Part shown: positions 2,895 through 12,518 of the stretch, in pieces
Position numbering within the stretch: position 1 is the stretch's first letter
Layout of the letters: every line of letters begins with the position of its first letter
NCBI GenBank assembly: GCA_034522055.1
Contig: JAXHLS010000002.1
Span: 620,001 to 684,000 of the forward strand
Direction of reading: 5' to 3'
From: Gammaproteobacteria bacterium
Lineage (GTDB): Bacteria; Pseudomonadota; Gammaproteobacteria; JAABTG01
Length of the DNA: 64,000 bases
The notes under the pieces: generated by a model
What the model was told of the DNA's origin: nothing
Seen by the model: the letters and a program-made list of their open reading frames with translations, nothing else
Databases searched by the model: none
Translations under genes and position numbers: made by a program

Positions 2895-4355
2895 ATGGGC
2901 CCGAGCATCACCCGTTTCATTCTAGTCCTGTCCGTGCTCCTCGCGGATACCCACCCCGCCGCCGCGCCATCCACATCCGTTGCCCTCGGCCCCACCGAGT
3001 TGATGGCGGCGGTGGAACGGGGGGAAGTCGCGGCCATGGACCGGCTGCTGGGCTCCGGTGCGCCTCCCGACGCCGCTAACCGGCAGGGTGAAACCGCCCT
3101 GCATCTCGCCACTGCACAACCACTGGCCATCACCGAGCGACTCACCGCCGCCGGCGCCAACATCGACGCCCGCGACGCGGGCGGTGTATCCGTTCTCATG
3201 CGGGCGGCGGGACGGGGCCGCAGGGACTTGGTGGAGCATCTGCTGGCGGCCGGCGCCCGGCTCGACTTCAAGGACTACGAGGGCGCCTCGGCCGTGCACT
3301 GGGCCGGCCGCGCGGGTCACCGCGAACTCGCGCGCTTCCTTACGGCAAGGCTCGAGGCGCAGCCCTCGCCCGCCCATGTCCCAGACCGCCACGAGTTTGC
3401 CGAGGACGTGTTCGTCGATGTCGAGTTTCCGGACTGGTTCAAGGAGAGTTTCCTCGACCTCGACGTGAACCTCGGGGAGGCGCTGGACGCCCGCAAGCAG
3501 GGCATCATGCTCTTCGTCAGCACCCGCCGGTGCAGCTACTGCAAGGCCTTCCTCGACAAATCCCTGAGCCGGCAGGACATCAGGCAACGGCTGACGGATG
3601 CCTTCGACATCATCGGACTGGAGATCTTCGACGATTCCATGATGACGGCCGTGGACGGCACGCGCTATAGGGTCAAGGAGTTCGTGAAGGCGGAGAAGGC
3701 GAGCCTGACCCCCACTCTGATCTTCTACGGCGAGGGCGGCAGGCGCTTGCTCAAGATCGTCGGCTACTATCCGCCCGAACGGTTCCGCCAGGTCCTTGAC
3801 TATCTCGAGGGCGGACACCATCGGCACATGACGCTGCGCAGCTTCATGGCGGCTCGGCCCTCGCCCACCGTGTCCTCGAAGACACGACCCGCCCTCGCGG
3901 AAGACACCCTGTTCGCCACGCCGCCCCACATTCTCGACCGCCGGGGGGCGGCCAGCGACCGGCCGCTGATGGTGTTGTTCGAGGAGCGGGACTGCCCGGC
4001 CTGCGCCCGCTTCCACCGCCGCGTGCTCGCCGACGAGGCCATACGTGGCCTGCTGGAGGAATATGAGGTGCGGCGACTCGAGATCGGCGATCGCGAGACC
4101 CCCGTCATCACCCCGACCGGTGAGGGCACCACGGCAGCGGCATGGTACGGGACGCTGGGCTTGTCCTACGCTCCGGCGGTGGTGCTGTTCGACCGTCAGG
4201 GTCGCGAGGTCATGCGCATCGATTCGGAGACCCTGCGCTTCCGCATGGAAGGGTCCCTGCAGATGGTGCTGGAGGATACCCCTCCGGAAGACCCCCAGTT
4301 GCAGCGCTGGCGACGCGACAAGGCCATCCGGGCCCGCACCGCCGTATCCCGCTGA
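2895..4355 (+). CDS. secreted ankyrin-repeat protein with two thioredoxin-like domains
   Basis: A 486-residue protein. Residues 1-24 look like a Sec signal peptide ending near THPAAA, so it probably works in the periplasm. About three to four ankyrin repeats follow (residues 33-155; GETALHLAT, GVSVLMRAA, GASAVHWAG). A first thioredoxin-like domain carries a C213-S-Y-C216 motif and a second carries C367-P-A-C370. The first resembles SoxW or thioredoxin-fold 'thiol:disulfide interchange' domains. The combination suggests a protein-bound redox enzyme whose ankyrin part recruits a partner. Both CxxC pairs are intact. The start gives a clean signal peptide directly. It stands alone, facing an old CTERM gene remnant. 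Confidence 0.8.
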   Translation: MGPSITRFILVLSVLLADTHPAAAPSTSVALGPTELMAAVERGEVAAMDRLLGSGAPPDAANRQGETALHLATAQPLAITERLTAAGANIDARDAGGVSVLMRAAGRGRRDLVEHLLAAGARLDFKDYEGASAVHWAGRAGHRELARFLTARLEAQPSPAHVPDRHEFAEDVFVDVEFPDWFKESFLDLDVNLGEALDARKQGIMLFVSTRRCSYCKAFLDKSLSRQDIRQRLTDAFDIIGLEIFDDSMMTAVDGTRYRVKEFVKAEKASLTPTLIFYGEGGRRLLKIVGYYPPERFRQVLDYLEGGHHRHMTLRSFMAARPSPTVSSKTRPALAEDTLFATPPHILDRRGAASDRPLMVLFEERDCPACARFHRRVLADEAIRGLLEEYEVRRLEIGDRETPVITPTGEGTTAAAWYGTLGLSYAPAVVLFDRQGREVMRIDSETLRFRMEGSLQMVLEDTPPEDPQLQRWRRDKAIRARTAVSR

Positions 4356-4624: not shown

Positions 4625-5551
4625 TCACCGCCCGCCGTCGAGACGTTCCCTCGCCCTCGCCACTGCGACGCGGTGGCGGTTCATGTCCCGCCACGGGTCC
4701 TGCTTCTGGCCGAGACGCTGGCGCAGGTTGCCGAGATGGTAGCGCTGCGGCCCTAGCTCCGATCGGTCCAGCTCGTCCCAGTCCAGGGGCGTGGCCACCG
4801 GTGCCCCCGGCAGGGGCCGCAGGGCGTAGGGCACCACCGCGGTCTGGCCATAGGCGTTGCGCATCACATCGAGATAAAGGCGGCCCTCCCGCTTATCCTT
4901 GCGTTGCTCGGTGGTGAGTTCGTCGGGATACTCGCGCGCCAACCGCGCGGCCATGGCATGGGCGCAGGCCCGGGCGGCATCGAAGTCGCCACTACCGTCC
5001 AGCGGGGCCACCACGTGGAGGCCCCGCGAGCCGGTGGTCATCACGAAAGGGGTCATGCCGAGGTCGGTCATGAGCCCGGCAACCCGCCGGGCCGCGGCCC
5101 TGACGGGGGTGAAATCGTCACCGGCGGGGTCGAGGTCGAACACCAGCCGGTCGGGATGGTGAGGCTGCCCGGCGCGGGACAGCCAGCCGTGGAAGGTGAT
5201 GACGCCCTGGTTGGCGAGGTAGACCAGGGTCGGGGCGTCGCCACACACGATGTGGTGCACCTTATCGTCCCCGCCACCGGCACGCGGCAGAGACACCCCC
5301 TCGACCCAGGCGGGGAAATAGTCCGGCCGTTGCTGCTGATAAAAACCCTCGGCGTCGATGCCGTCTGGGAAGCGCTGCAGGGTCAGGGGGCGTTCCGACA
5401 GGTGCATCATCATGATGTCGGCGAGGTCGAGATAGTAGTCCACGACGTCCCCCTTGGAGATACCGGCGTCGGGAAACCATACCTTATTCAGGTTTTTGAG
5501 CTCGATGTCCCGCCCCCCCACCATGATGCGCTTCATGGACGACTCCGCCAT
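4625..5551 (-). CDS. ligD: LigD-type primase-polymerase domain protein
   Basis: A 308-residue protein matching the polymerase (Pol/primase) domain of bacterial LigD. It has LNKVWFPDAGISKGDVVDYY at the start, the two metal-binding aspartates in FDLDPAGDDF, and TTGSRGLHVVAPL. In non-homologous end joining this domain fills gaps and adds ribonucleotides at breaks held by Ku. Here it is a free-standing gene just 7 nt after the phosphoesterase gene, so the two are almost certainly co-transcribed. The ATG at 5551 was chosen because a longer frame would run into the upstream gene and adds only low-complexity sequence. No ligase domain and no Ku gene are visible in the window. Confidence 0.9.
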   Translation of the reverse strand: MAESSMKRIMVGGRDIELKNLNKVWFPDAGISKGDVVDYYLDLADIMMMHLSERPLTLQRFPDGIDAEGFYQQQRPDYFPAWVEGVSLPRAGGGDDKVHHIVCGDAPTLVYLANQGVITFHGWLSRAGQPHHPDRLVFDLDPAGDDFTPVRAAARRVAGLMTDLGMTPFVMTTGSRGLHVVAPLDGSGDFDAARACAHAMAARLAREYPDELTTEQRKDKREGRLYLDVMRNAYGQTAVVPYALRPLPGAPVATPLDWDELDRSELGPQRYHLGNLRQRLGQKQDPWRDMNRHRVAVARARERLDGGR

Positions 5552-5558
5552 ACCATGA

Positions 5559-6161
5559 TCAGGCACCGTCCTCTTCGTCAGCCACGTCTTCGAGTCCGCG
5601 TCCCGTCTGCACCGACTCCGGCTGGGTGCTGGTGGGCCGCCGGCGGGCGTCGGCCTCGTCGTCATCCATCTTGATGAGCAGCCATTGAGGCTTGTGGCCG
5701 CCGCGGATGCGCTTCAGAGCATACCCCCCCTTAAGCTTGTCCCCCTCCAGCCACACCTCCACCAGCCCCTCTTCGAGGGCCCCGGCCATGTCCGTCCCAT
5801 CGTCGTCTTTCTCCGCCCGCAGGTTGCGGTACTCGCCCTGGTCCCACACCAGCACCGTACCGGCGCCATATTCGCCCTCCGGGATGACGCCCTCGAAGGT
5901 GGCGTAGTCCAGGGGATGGTCTTCGGTGCGAATGGCGAGGCGGCGGGTACGCGGATCCGTGGACGGTCCCTTGGGCACCGCCCAGGACACCAGCACGTTG
6001 TCCACCTGCAGGCGAAAGTCGTAGTGGAGGTTGCGGGCGGCGTGCTTCTGGATGACGAAGCGGCGGCCGCCTTGGTGCGGCGTATCGTCACCCGCCGGCT
6101 CCGCCGTCTTGCGGAAATCCCGCTTGCCGCGGTAGGCCTTGAGTTTGTCGGACATAACCAT
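5559..6161 (-). CDS. ligD: LigD-type 3'-phosphoesterase domain protein
   Basis: A 200-residue protein with the LigD 3'-phosphoesterase (PE) signature: FVIQKHAARNLHYDFRL near residue 40, then SWAVPKGPS, HPLDYATFEGVIPEGEYG and GYALKRI. The PE domain trims 3'-phosphates and ribonucleotides from DNA ends during end joining. In many bacteria PE is fused to ligase and polymerase; here it is a separate gene directly upstream of the Pol gene. The C-terminal 30 residues are acidic and low complexity. Translation may start at the first ATG or two codons later (MSDK); neither has an obvious ribosome-binding site. Confidence 0.9.
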   Translation of the reverse strand: MVMSDKLKAYRGKRDFRKTAEPAGDDTPHQGGRRFVIQKHAARNLHYDFRLQVDNVLVSWAVPKGPSTDPRTRRLAIRTEDHPLDYATFEGVIPEGEYGAGTVLVWDQGEYRNLRAEKDDDGTDMAGALEEGLVEVWLEGDKLKGGYALKRIRGGHKPQWLLIKMDDDEADARRRPTSTQPESVQTGRGLEDVADEEDGA

Positions 6162-8138: not shown

Positions 8139-8420
8139 ATGAAAACACGATGGATTCGCCTGGCAACCATCCAGGCACTGATGCTGACCGGCGTTCTGGC
8201 AAACGCATCGGAGGTCGACGAATTCGCGCTGGAACCGTGTATCAACGGTGGCGTGTCGGCCAGCGGCCTGTTTGCCAGCCAGGCCGAGGAGGACCGCTAT
8301 CACGCTGAACAGCTGGCGCTCGAACTCGAGCCCTGCATCAACGGCGATGTTTCGGCGACCGGCCTGTTCCTCAGCCAGGCTGAAGAAGACACTCTGCTGC
8401 ATCGGCTAGCCGGCAGCTGA
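8139..8420 (+). CDS. small secreted protein made of two EPCING repeats
   Basis: A 93-residue protein with a signal peptide (residues 1-23, ending LANA). The mature part is essentially two copies of a 22-residue unit at residues 31-52 and 63-84: LEPCING-x-VSA-x-GLF, then x-SQAEED. The spacing is 32 residues and there is one cysteine per unit (C34 and C66). The two Cys could bridge to each other or to another chain. A good ribosome-binding site (aggaga) precedes the ATG. The next gene, 132 nt away on the same strand, is also exported. I do not recognise the family, so no function is assigned. Confidence 0.75.
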   Translation: MKTRWIRLATIQALMLTGVLANASEVDEFALEPCINGGVSASGLFASQAEEDRYHAEQLALELEPCINGDVSATGLFLSQAEEDTLLHRLAGS

Positions 8421-8552
8421 CACGATATCGGCCGGGGGGGGCCGCGGTCGCCCTGCCCGGTCCGGACGACGTCCGCTGCGCCTGCGCCGGGACGGTTTCG
8501 GCCGGCCGGCGTGCAGCACAAGAGCAACGATGAACGATCGGAGATACACGCT

Positions 8553-9485
8553 ATGAAAATATCAATTCTGGCCGGCATTCTTGCCGTCTCGCCCTACCTC
8601 GTCCAGGCCGCTACGCCGGTGCAGCCGCTGGTCGACGGGAATTGGATCAAGGCTAATGGCTGCAATGCCGGCGTGGTCGTACTGGACATCCGCAGCGAGA
8701 AGATCGACGGCCAATCGGCCGGCGACTATCGCAAGGGCCATGTACCCTGCGCGGTTCACACCGACTACCATACCGCTGGCTGGCGGACCAAGGTCGACAA
8801 TGTGCCCGGCATGCTGGCGCCGGTCGACAAGCTGGAGGCGCTGATCGGCGCTCTGGGCATCGACAACGACACCCATGTCGTCATCAGCCCGCGCGGTAAC
8901 AGCGCAAAGAGTATGGGTGCGGCGACCCGCGTTTACTGGACCCTCAAGGTGCTAGGCCACGACCCGGTCTCGATCCTCGACGGCGGTACCGAGAGTTATG
9001 CCGCCAACAAGACGAACGTGCTCGAACCGGGTGAGCGCAAGCCGCAACCCAAGAGCTTCAGGGCCACGCTGCGCAGCGATATGCTGGTCGGCCGCGACGA
9101 GGTGCAGCGCGCCCTGGCGGAGCGCACCGGCCTGGTCGACTACCGCGGGCCGGACCAGTTTCTCGGCATCAACCGCCACGCCAAGGTCAAACAACGCGGC
9201 ACATTGCCCGGCGCGGCCAACCTGCCGATCGAGTGGCTGACGATCGACAACACCGGCCGCTATCGCAGCACGCGTGGTCTGGAGGAGGTCTATCGCTTGG
9301 CCAAGGTGCCAACGGACGAGGGCCACATCGCGTTCTGTAACACCGGCCACAACTCGGCGATGGGCTGGTTCGTCGCCAGCGAACTGCTCGGCAACAAGGA
9401 CGTGCGCGCCTACGACGGCTCGATGGCGGACTGGACGCGCCAGGACCAGCCGGTGGTCGATCGGCGGATAAACGTTGCCGACTGA
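8553..9485 (+). CDS. periplasmic two-domain rhodanese (thiosulfate sulfurtransferase-like)
   Basis: A 310-residue protein that begins MKISILAGILAVSPYLVQA, a signal peptide, so the ATG at 8553 is preferred over an in-frame ATG 14 codons earlier. Two rhodanese domains follow: the first (about residues 20-150) has VVLDIR..EKIDGQSAGDYRKGHVPCAVH, and the second (170-305) ends with the active-site loop F-C262-N-T-G-H-N-S. The first domain's loop (SPRGNSAKS) lacks the cysteine, as in other tandem rhodaneses where only the C-terminal half is catalytic. It should carry sulfane sulfur on C262 in the periplasm. Its neighbour is the EPCING-repeat secreted protein. Confidence 0.85.
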   Translation: MKISILAGILAVSPYLVQAATPVQPLVDGNWIKANGCNAGVVVLDIRSEKIDGQSAGDYRKGHVPCAVHTDYHTAGWRTKVDNVPGMLAPVDKLEALIGALGIDNDTHVVISPRGNSAKSMGAATRVYWTLKVLGHDPVSILDGGTESYAANKTNVLEPGERKPQPKSFRATLRSDMLVGRDEVQRALAERTGLVDYRGPDQFLGINRHAKVKQRGTLPGAANLPIEWLTIDNTGRYRSTRGLEEVYRLAKVPTDEGHIAFCNTGHNSAMGWFVASELLGNKDVRAYDGSMADWTRQDQPVVDRRINVAD

Positions 9486-9567: not shown

Positions 9568-9611
9568 CGTCCATGATAGGGGTCGGGAAGGAGTGACCCT
9601 CCCCGCCCTCC

Positions 9612-9644
9612 GAACCGTGCATGCGGTTCTCCCGCACACGGCTC
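9612..9644 (-). ncRNA. group II intron domain V
   Basis: The minus strand reads gagccgtgtgcgg, a gaga-type loop, then ccgcatgcacggttc. This is the canonical domain V hairpin with the invariant AGC near its base. Domain VI follows immediately (9575-9611). The intact domain V is the best evidence that this is a group II intron. Confidence 0.8.
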
Positions 9645-9661
9645 TCCAGTCGGTGGTTACC

Positions 9662-10142
9662 TCATCGGGATTGGCTCGCCAACGTCCGGGCTTCGGTCAT
9701 GGTGAAAAGCCCAGCCGCAGCGAAGAACGCGTTCGGCCAGCGGAGATGGTCGGACTGACAATGACCCGCTCCCGGGCGCTTCTGCTGCTTGCGCAACAGC
9801 GCCCGTAATCGACGTCGGACAAAACCGTCCACGCGAGGAAAGGTCCACGGGTGCGCGTGCTGGAAATACACGAACCAGCCACGCAGCATCGGGTTCAGGT
9901 CGGCCACAATCCGCGCCAGCGAATCCCACGCACCTGCGCCGGGTTTTGGCCCGGACCCGGTCGTAAAGGGCCTTGCGGCTCTTCTTGCGTACCCACCGCC
10001 GTCCCGCTTCAAACCGGTACCCGAGAAACTCAAAGCCTTCCCCGGGCTGCCGGCAATCCCGCGCTTTCCCGGCACCACCCACGGTTTTAGGCGGAGGACG
10101 CCCTCCAGCTCTTGGGTCCGCGTTTCCGCAGCACCTCGCCAT
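9662..10142 (-). pseudogene. C-terminal remnant of group II intron reverse transcriptase/maturase
   Basis: One minus frame carries FEFLGYRFEAGRRWVRKKSRK and then a second frame carries LNPMLRGWFVYFQHAHPWTF followed by VDGFVRRRLRALLRKQQ. Together these are the typical maturase domain (group II intron maturase-specific domain). They are separated by a frameshift near 9950. The catalytic reverse-transcriptase core (the YADD region) is missing, so the product cannot be functional. Confidence 0.75.
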
Positions 10143-10572: not shown

Positions 10573-12331
10573 TCACCGCTCGGCCAGACCCGCGCGCGCC
10601 AGGTCGTTGAGGAAGCGCTCCCGATACTGCGGGTCGCGGATCGGAAAGCCATAGTCGAGATCGAGTGCGAAAGCCGGATCCAGGGCGCGGATCTCCTCGA
10701 CCTGCCAGCGCGCGGCATCCAACTGGCCGGTCGCGGCGTAAACCGCAGCCAGAAACAGGCGGGTGAGCAACAGGTCCGGGTTGATTCCGACCGACTCCTC
10801 AAGCAACTGCAACGCCTGCTCCAACTGCCCCAATTCGTAATGCAGTGCGGCCTTCACCGTGCGGTAGAGGGCAGGCACCCGCGGGTTCAGTGCAATCGCC
10901 TGGCTCATTGCCTCCAGGCCTTCAACGGGGCGCCCGGCGAAGTGCAGGATCCAGGCCAGCAGCGCGTGGGCGTCGGCATAGCTCGGCCGCAGCTCGAGCG
11001 CGTGTGACACTTCGGCGATGGCTGCCGCCGGATTGCCCTTGTACAGCTCGACTGTCGCGAGCGCATAGCGCAGCTGCGGCAGATTACCGTCGATCGCCAG
11101 CCCCTGGCGCGCGACCGCTTCGGCGCGCGCGAGCGACTCTGTCACCCTCGCCCCGTGGCCATAGACCGCGTGCAGCGCGTAGGTCAGCGCCAGCCCGGCA
11201 TAGGCCCGGGCAAAACGCGGGTCGAGTTCGATCGCCCGCTCGAAATGTGCCCTGGCCTGCAGGTTGTCCGCGCTCGCGCGGCGGCCCAGCAAATCAAGCC
11301 CGCGCAGCAACTCGTCGTAGACCTCAACGCTCGTGGCGTACCGCCGGATCACGCGTTGCCGCTCCCCCGGGGCCAACTCGATCTGCAGTGCCGCGACCAC
11401 CTGCGCGGTGATCTCGTCCTGGATGCGGAAAATATCGGCGAGTTCGCGGTCGTAGCGCTCGCTCCAGCGGTTGTGTCCCTCGACCACGTCGACCAGGTTC
11501 ACGTTGATGCGCAGCCGCCTGCCGGCACGCTGCACGCTACCCTTGACGATGAAGCGCGCCCCGACTTCGCCTCCGATGACGCTTTCCGATTCGGCGCTGC
11601 CGCGATAGGCGAGCACCGAATTGTGCGCCATCACCTGCAACTCCGAGAGCTTGGAAAGATTCGGTGATCAGATCCTGGGTGATGCCATCGGCGAAATAGT
11701 CCTGTTCCGGATCCCCGCTGAGATTCTCGAACGGCAGCACAGCGATCACCGACCGTTCGGACGGCGCAGCGGTCACATGCTCAGGCTCCATCTCGCGGCC
11801 GATCTCGGGGGAGCGCGTCCCCAACCAGACGAGCACCAGCGCGATCACCAGGGCCGCCATCATCAGCGACAGCAGGAAGCGCCGATTTACCGGTCCAGTA
11901 CTGTGGGAAGCGGGGGATGTCACACCCACCGAGTGTTCCGGGGGTGCGCTTGCGGGTAATTCGGCGACGGGCTCGACATCGGCCAGCAGCCGGTAGCCAG
12001 ACTTGGAGATGGTCTCGATATACCTTGGATTGCGCGCAGCGTCACCGAGCGCCTTGCGCAGTTTGATCACGGTGTTGGTGAGGGCATCGTCAGTGACGAT
12101 CATCCGCGGCCAGACGTTCGCTTCCAGATCATGGCGCGACACCACCTGGCCGCGCCGCTCGACCAGGAAAGTCAGCACCCGCATCACCTTGGGTTCGAGC
12201 CTGATCTCCTGATCGCCCTGTAACAGACTGTGTCTGGGCGGATCGACCAGCCAATCACCCAACCGGAACGGCCGGTCGGCAAGCGCGGAGCGATTTTCAG
12301 TCTCAGAATCGGCGCCTTTTTTCCCCTCCAT
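10573..12331 (-). pseudogene. CadC/ToxR-like membrane regulator with TolB-like and TPR region (one frameshift)
   Basis: Read in order from the ATG at 12331 (preceded by gagga): a winged-helix transcriptional domain (residues about 25-125; LEPKVMRVLTFLVERRGQVVS, VIKLRKALGDAARNPRYIET), a transmembrane helix (RRFLLSLMMAALVIALVLVW), then the TolB-like motif VLPFENLSGDPEQDYFADGI. After one extra base near 11655 the other frame continues with the expected SKLSELQVMAHNS and several TPR repeats to the end. Removing one base restores about 585 residues. Such proteins bind DNA from the membrane in response to periplasmic or TPR-mediated signals. It may control the divergent rhodanese locus, but nothing shows this directly. 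Confidence 0.75.
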
Positions 12332-12518
12332 CGATCCTCGGTCCCTGATCTGGCCAGCCTGATTCCCGGCCCGGTTGAACCAAAGCATAGCCCCTTTCCG
12401 AAAGGTTGGAAATCGGTTGGCATACCAACGCAACACTTTCTTGGCACTGGTCAGACCCTACCCCAAAGGGGCGGTCACCGGCCGTATGGAGAAACCACCT
12501 GGGATGGACCACCGCTCC

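Follow-up and report, generated by a model that had tools for sequence, protein, structure and literature searches.

The small protein EPCING, encoded in the window (the whole 64,000-nucleotide stretch of gammaproteobacterial DNA analyzed here), belongs to an apparently undescribed and narrowly distributed family of small, predicted exported proteins, some of whose genes lie divergent from or near genes for CadC-like transmembrane transcription regulators. The recurrent context points to an undescribed envelope gene cluster and not to a fixed sulfur-transfer pair. We tentatively favor the reading that EPCING proteins may be periplasmic partners or targets of these regulators in a sulfur or thiol setting.

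Results

A small protein with two near-identical units

The 93-aa translation of the window's EPCING gene, whose ATG has an AGGAG just 5′ of it (by eye), begins with a hydrophobic stretch that is compatible by hydropathy with a Sec signal and continues with two tandem units (Table 1). These start exactly 32 residues apart, are identical at 18 of 21 amino acids and at 48 of 63 nucleotides, and contain one Cys each (Cys34 and Cys66). Because 10 of the 18 identical residues are specified by different codons in the two units, their likeness appears to be kept at the protein level. The initial annotation had described a small exported protein with two nearly identical units at this spacing and one Cys in each, and that description is borne out, with units of 21 residues.

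Table 1. Coordinates of features in the window
Feature	Positions	Strand	Detail or basis
Ankyrin and double thioredoxin protein, likely exported	2895..4355	+	Ankyrin repeats, then two thioredoxin-like domains
EPCING protein gene	8139..8420	+	93 aa, likely exported, two tandem units
EPCING unit 1, EPCINGGVSASGLFASQAEED	8232..8294	+	Residues 32-52; unit comparison
EPCING unit 2, EPCINGDVSATGLFLSQAEED	8328..8390	+	Residues 64-84; unit comparison
Tandem-domain rhodanese, likely exported	8553..9485	+	Loop CNTGHNS in domain 2; Pfam, loop search
Group II intron remnant	9576..10142	-	Domain V 9576-9646 (Rfam); maturase C-terminal fragment 9657-10142 (by eye)
CadC-like transmembrane transcription regulator	10576..12436 (outer frame limit 12457)	-	Winged-helix frame 11540-12457; TPR frame 10576-11667

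Chance similarity was ruled out because homologues are present in other genomes, with an E value of 2.4e-14 when the window protein served as a single query and values down to 6e-18 with a profile of the unit. In the family libraries, the window protein matched only DUF3833 of Pfam, below threshold, and nothing in NCBIfam or PHROGs (PHROGs cut-off E ≤ 0.01); its relatives in loci L014 and L018 had no Pfam match above the curated cut-off. The predicted structure of the protein (pLDDT 68.6, pTM 0.36) has no confident fold, each unit being modeled at low confidence as a loop plus a helix, and the family alignment matched no solved structure at E ≤ 1. A phage origin was also considered and rejected: one scan with a four-sequence alignment found no relative in viral contigs, and a PHROGs search with four proteins gave no match at E ≤ 0.01, with the L014 EPCING protein reaching one PHROG at E 0.014.

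EPCING proteins form a narrowly distributed family in which the Cys varies

The unit profile, built from 19 units, recovered 29 EPCING genes in 29 loci of 23 genomes (E ≤ 0.01). Paralogues exist within genomes; the window's genome carries two further EPCING genes besides the one in the window. Of 210 genomes in the order that contains a Thiohalocapsa MAG (an order taken as Chromatiales), 19 carry the family. A sample of 369 genomes from the window's class gave six with a match; two of the six show marginal fragments, and one (G292) belongs to a family outside the window's. Two weak class-level matches of 15-17 residues (G177 and G127) were left out of the member count. With the window protein as a single query, three of five genomes of the window's order matched, and a less sensitive four-sequence profile found the window's genome alone among 398 genomes of a phylum sample. 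By name, the carriers include Chromatiaceae, Sedimenticola, Thiohalocapsa, Candidatus Thiosymbion, and a 'Thiotrichales' MAG. We call this family undescribed, together with the GDIGP family introduced below, on the basis of the family libraries and of a literature search by title or abstract start, which returned no paper describing either one; the string 'EPCING' anywhere retrieved one unrelated paper.

A hydrophobic N-terminal stretch is present by hydropathy in all 29 members, from which we infer export. The shared motif reads roughly L-E-P-C-x-N-G-x-V-S-x-x-G-[LI]-[YF]-x-[TS]-Q-x-x-E-D. Two full units were present in 5 of the 29 members by our own reading of the matches, and three of those five have two Cys. 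The motif Cys is kept in 23 members and replaced by Ala in five (as in a natural relative from G292, locus L014) and by Ser in one, and the six Cys-less members otherwise keep the motif. An invariant Cys is ruled out by these replacements, so the family lacks the invariant acceptor Cys that would mark a sulfur-carrier protein. In the window's genome, sulfur might pass directly onto the EPCING cysteines, but such transfer cannot account for the family as a whole.

The adjacent rhodanese is not a fixed partner

The rhodanese gene follows the EPCING gene on the same strand after a gap of 132 nt; a simple scan found no terminator-like site between them, and co-transcription is possible on this layout. 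The most likely start is the ATG at 8553 (310 aa), with a GTG at 8511 as an upstream alternative. The protein matches the Pfam Rhodanese domain PF00581 in two stretches (E 1.6e-19), and a catalytic-type loop was found in domain 2 only, as is usual for tandem rhodaneses. A likely exported rhodanese with its active Cys confined to the second domain, as first annotated, is thus what we find. Its score against the NCBIfam equivalog for 3-mercaptopyruvate sulfurtransferase (PRK11493) was 104.2 against a cut-off of 250 bits, and it also fell below the cut-off of the ExtH equivalog in NCBIfam.

The initial annotation had further proposed that the two EPCING cysteines could accept or hold sulfur from this rhodanese, and had named homologues found widely without a rhodanese or other sulfur-metabolism neighbor as the finding that would speak against it. 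No window-type rhodanese was detected in the 28 other EPCING loci (phmmer E ≤ 1e-5; flanks up to about 6 kb, shorter at contig ends), and no EPCING unit was detected in 22 other rhodanese loci. A fixed EPCING-rhodanese pair is ruled out by these counts, and the pairing fails as a general one because the annotation's own test gives 0 of 28 and 0 of 22. At the level of whole genomes, the window rhodanese has no match at E ≤ 1e-8 in 7 of the 23 EPCING carriers. Apart from the window's genome, only four carriers (G752, G785, G906, and G908) have a rhodanese of 50-57% identity, each on another contig than the EPCING gene (these are MAG contigs, which do not give the true distances).

We therefore regard it as quite improbable that EPCING acts as a sulfur carrier in the periplasm, its cysteines accepting or holding sulfane sulfur supplied by the adjacent rhodanese. 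The uninterrupted same-strand arrangement in the window would suit such a role, as would the Cys in 23 of 29 members, the naming of several hosts as sulfur bacteria, and the presence of distant rhodanese orthologues at the same loci as relatives of a Sulf_transp protein (L141); but the arrangement occurs in the window only, the Cys-less members retain the rest of the motif, and close rhodanese relatives are scarce among the carriers and lie on other contigs.

The regulator resembles CadC and ToxR in sequence and predicted fold

Beyond the rhodanese, the window regulator is split over two frames, with the frame change somewhere in 11540-11667. This copy may be inactive; a sequencing error and decay would both fit the split. 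The regulator family combines PF00486 with TPR stretches and has weak FlgO or TolB_N matches, mostly below cut-offs. The window's winged-helix frame and the four other regulators that were scanned all score above the PF00486 cut-off, which gives the family an N-terminal winged helix of the OmpR/PhoB type, and the regulator in L017 is a BTAD variant. By hydropathy, all 18 relatives analyzed have a hydrophobic stretch at about residues 124-155, as expected for a single membrane helix; the L189 regulator barely passes (1.66 against a threshold of 1.6), the L013 regulator has a second, weaker stretch, and the window regulator lies outside this set, its stretch having been read by eye.

Among solved chains, the CadC and ToxR DNA-binding domains were the leading winged-helix matches by sequence. 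The model of the L013 regulator (pLDDT 84.6, pTM 0.69) had the CadC periplasmic domain as its best match (Z 22.4, rmsd 4.1, 296 aligned) and also matched the ToxR DNA-binding domain (Z 18.7, rmsd 1.3, 103 aligned), so that, by way of this relative, a periplasmic sensor of alpha-beta plus TPR architecture is predicted for the window regulator as well. The cut-off of the CadC equivalog (NCBIfam PRK10153, 400 bits) was not reached, the scores being 105.6 for the L012 regulator and 34.5 for the window's TPR frame.

Some EPCING genes lie divergent from or near CadC-like regulators

An all-against-all comparison of flanks returned a winged-helix and TPR regulator as the neighbor shared by the largest number of loci. 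In ten EPCING genomes, which together hold 21 such regulators at E ≤ 1e-30 (22 profile matches, the window copy having been counted as two), 6 of the 15 EPCING genes have a regulator within 3 kb where 0.048 would be expected (Poisson P 1.5e-11). Because these genomes were picked for carrying EPCING and four of the loci supplied the seed for the regulator profile, the cautious figure is the one obtained when those four loci are left out, with two EPCING genes near a regulator and P 1e-3 at the same expectation. The window's genome has only two regulators at E ≤ 1e-30, and both lie within 3 kb of EPCING genes. A large neighbor in L021 that clustered with the regulators was missed by the profile and left out of the count. 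Flank genes were called with a simple codon-bias script, and MAG contigs end near several loci.

The EPCING and regulator genes are divergent in L013, L017, L023, and L077, which represent four genomes, with about 180-230 bp from the likely EPCING start to the first recognizable part of the regulator (starts unmapped). In the window, the regulator is instead downstream and convergent, beyond the rhodanese, and since it belongs to a rhodanese-linked clade (see below) its nearness to EPCING may be a chance juxtaposition. A search of 15 intergenic regions for a shared operator motif gave no dyad or k-mer above the maxima of 60 Markov resamplings, with some k-mers equaling them.

In the available flanks of all 29 EPCING loci, a regulator was seen in 6 and absent from 23, so the link is not obligate; all six members near a regulator keep the Cys. 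Other EPCING loci hold Crp-type regulators (L016 and L069 by Pfam; L018-L020 by BLAST clustering), sensor kinases (L022 and L078 by Pfam; L024, L064, and L076 by clustering), and a GGDEF-EAL protein (L014). A locus resembling GlyA-NrdR-RibD was noted by eye in four related genomes, and the EPCING gene is divergent from an EncFtn-like ferritin gene in L064 (Pfam E 1.6e-45) and, by likeness, in L068. Such diversity, with the patchy occurrence in one order and the paralogues within genomes, would be expected if EPCING proteins were general secreted envelope or surface proteins encoded by genes that move about, their nearness to regulators and sulfur genes arising only because islands of genes for small exported proteins are shared. 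We consider this rather unlikely, since the excess near CadC-like regulators goes beyond chance, albeit in genomes picked for EPCING and with a profile seeded from four loci, and since the divergent layout recurs in four genomes.

TPR domains commonly bind short peptides, and EPCING could be a short-motif ligand of the groove in the regulator's periplasmic TPR domain, with each unit as one binding module and the number of units tuning sensor occupancy; it would then play the part of ToxS or VtrC as a soluble, secreted protein. The low-confidence loop-plus-helix models of the units and the alpha-beta plus TPR model of the regulator's periplasmic part are compatible with this, but the 23 loci without such a regulator make it improbable, as does orientation: in the available text of PMC9214523 the known co-components lie downstream on the regulator's strand, whereas EPCING is divergent.

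The same regulator family lies beside rhodanese genes

In the five best-scoring of the 22 rhodanese loci (L100, L101, L147, L148, and L149; 56-57% identity), the regulator lies tail-to-tail downstream of the rhodanese, with a gap of about 30-85 bp in four of them and about 330 bp in L101. This arrangement was not seen for the sixth orthologue (L150, 56%) or in the other 16 rhodanese loci. Gene order in the window is the same, with the group II intron remnant in the roughly 1.1 kb that separates the two genes. On its TPR frame only, the window regulator falls into a clade with the five rhodanese-linked copies and L136 (FastTree 0.997, ultrafast bootstrap 99), the contig that carries the L136 regulator being 3.9 kb long and lacking a rhodanese match. 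The window regulator shares 47-53% identity with the five rhodanese-linked copies and 38-40% with the EPCING-linked regulators of L013 and L023. Because the window regulator groups with the rhodanese-linked copies, the window appears to join a rhodanese-regulator cassette to an EPCING gene. The sulfur reading of the initial annotation thus survives in part: the fixed rhodanese pair does not stand, and a looser sulfur link finds some support, in that a CadC-like regulator is common to the relatives of both genes.

Further proteins bridge the two settings. One is GDIGP, a second small and unnamed exported protein, in which two Cys are invariant across five sequences. Its gene comes after the EPCING gene in L013 and L023 and is present in the rhodanese-regulator loci L100, L101, and L147 as well; it was not found in the window. 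A search with its own sequence matched 22 of 210 genomes. Five of these loci were already known and 15 were newly examined, so that 20 of the 22 were covered, the matches in G890 and G891 (one with an internal stop, one in a 50-residue frame) being left out. Eleven of the 15, two of them with regulator fragments only (L187 and L200), have a CadC-like regulator at a distance of about 1 kb or less, and the other four do not. Neither an EPCING unit nor a window-type rhodanese was found in these 15 loci. GDIGP loci include L186-L195, L013, L023, L100, L101, and L147, and a CadC-like regulator often adjoins.

The window's ankyrin and double thioredoxin protein has relatives of the same build adjoining regulators in L132 and L138, and double-thioredoxin relatives without the ankyrin part adjoin the rhodaneses of L149 and L150. 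A further set of 15 regulator loci includes four with a neighbor of sulfur or thiol type, namely two ankyrin-double-thioredoxin proteins, one DsrE (L135), and one Sulf_transp (L141), relatives of the last also lying near the more distant rhodanese orthologues; none was seen among the neighbors scanned in the remaining 11.

Two side observations concern the same stretches. A further unnamed family of small exported proteins (GRITIYDGL...MMFVRTR in L012) sits near EPCING, regulator, or rhodanese genes (L012:4317-4655, L016:7067-7489, and L150:578-1090). In the window, ORFs at 4625-6161 on the minus strand lie in two frames that overlap and resemble by eye the polymerase and phosphoesterase parts of LigD.

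Discussion

The best-supported link is at the gene level, between some EPCING genes and CadC-like regulators. Our tentative reading of EPCING as a partner or target of these regulators would work as follows. The regulator's cytoplasmic winged helix would switch neighboring envelope genes, and secreted EPCING would be made from the promoter region that it shares with a divergent regulator. EPCING would then act in the periplasm, the compartment of the regulator's predicted alpha-beta/TPR sensor domain, where it may either feed back on the sensor or perform part of the response. Because EPCING in the window adjoins what would be a second cassette of the same regulator family, comprising a periplasmic rhodanese and a tail-to-tail regulator, sulfane-sulfur or thiol handling in the envelope would be the likely theme of the response. 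What suggests a sulfur or thiol signal is the identity of the gene neighbors.

A bolder version holds that CadC-like regulators of sulfur-cycling Gammaproteobacteria sense periplasmic sulfane sulfur or thiol state through small secreted Cys-bearing partners (EPCING and GDIGP), which periplasmic sulfurtransferases like the window rhodanese would charge. We think this very improbable; if true, it would be a soluble-partner, sulfur-fed variant of ToxR-type signaling.

Comparison with known systems

Exported tandem rhodaneses that act as thiosulfate or mercaptopyruvate sulfurtransferases have, like the window protein, two PF00581 stretches and a catalytic-type Cys in the second domain. The differences are the loop of the window rhodanese and its relatives (CNTGH[NKW]), scores below the MST and ExtH equivalog cut-offs, and, in one clade, the pairing with a CadC-like regulator. 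The regulators share with CadC and ToxR the OmpR/PhoB-type winged helix, the one membrane helix, and the predicted periplasmic alpha-beta plus TPR domain. They differ from CadC in scoring far below its equivalog cut-off and in their neighbors, which are genes for secreted small proteins, rhodanese, DsrE, Sulf_transp, and thioredoxin-type proteins.

ToxR-type systems with small partners, ToxS and VtrC, are known from the available portions of PMC9214523 and PMC10269533, and in the former the co-component genes of ToxR/ToxS and VtrA/VtrC immediately follow the regulator gene in the same orientation. As far as these portions show, the EPCING loci are alike in that a ToxR-like regulator adjoins a gene for a small exported protein. 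By the same portions, EPCING is unlike ToxS and VtrC in being divergent and not obligate and in having no confident model and none that is lipocalin-like. None of the EPCING genes near regulators that we could place had the downstream, same-strand position: they are divergent in L013, L017, L023, and L077, and in the window the regulator is convergent beyond the rhodanese.

The SoxT/YeeE sulfur import and signaling units of a sulfur oxidizer, as presented in the available part of PMC11582611, also have sulfur-handling genes adjoining transcription regulators; there the regulator is the repressor SoxR, whereas here it is a CadC-like membrane protein. That part of PMC11582611 calls the sensing of external sulfur by regulators of sulfur oxidizers poorly understood. 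CadC-like membrane regulators beside secreted proteins and sulfur-transfer genes offer a concrete and testable candidate for such sensing, and two unnamed families, EPCING and GDIGP, gain a first genetic context.
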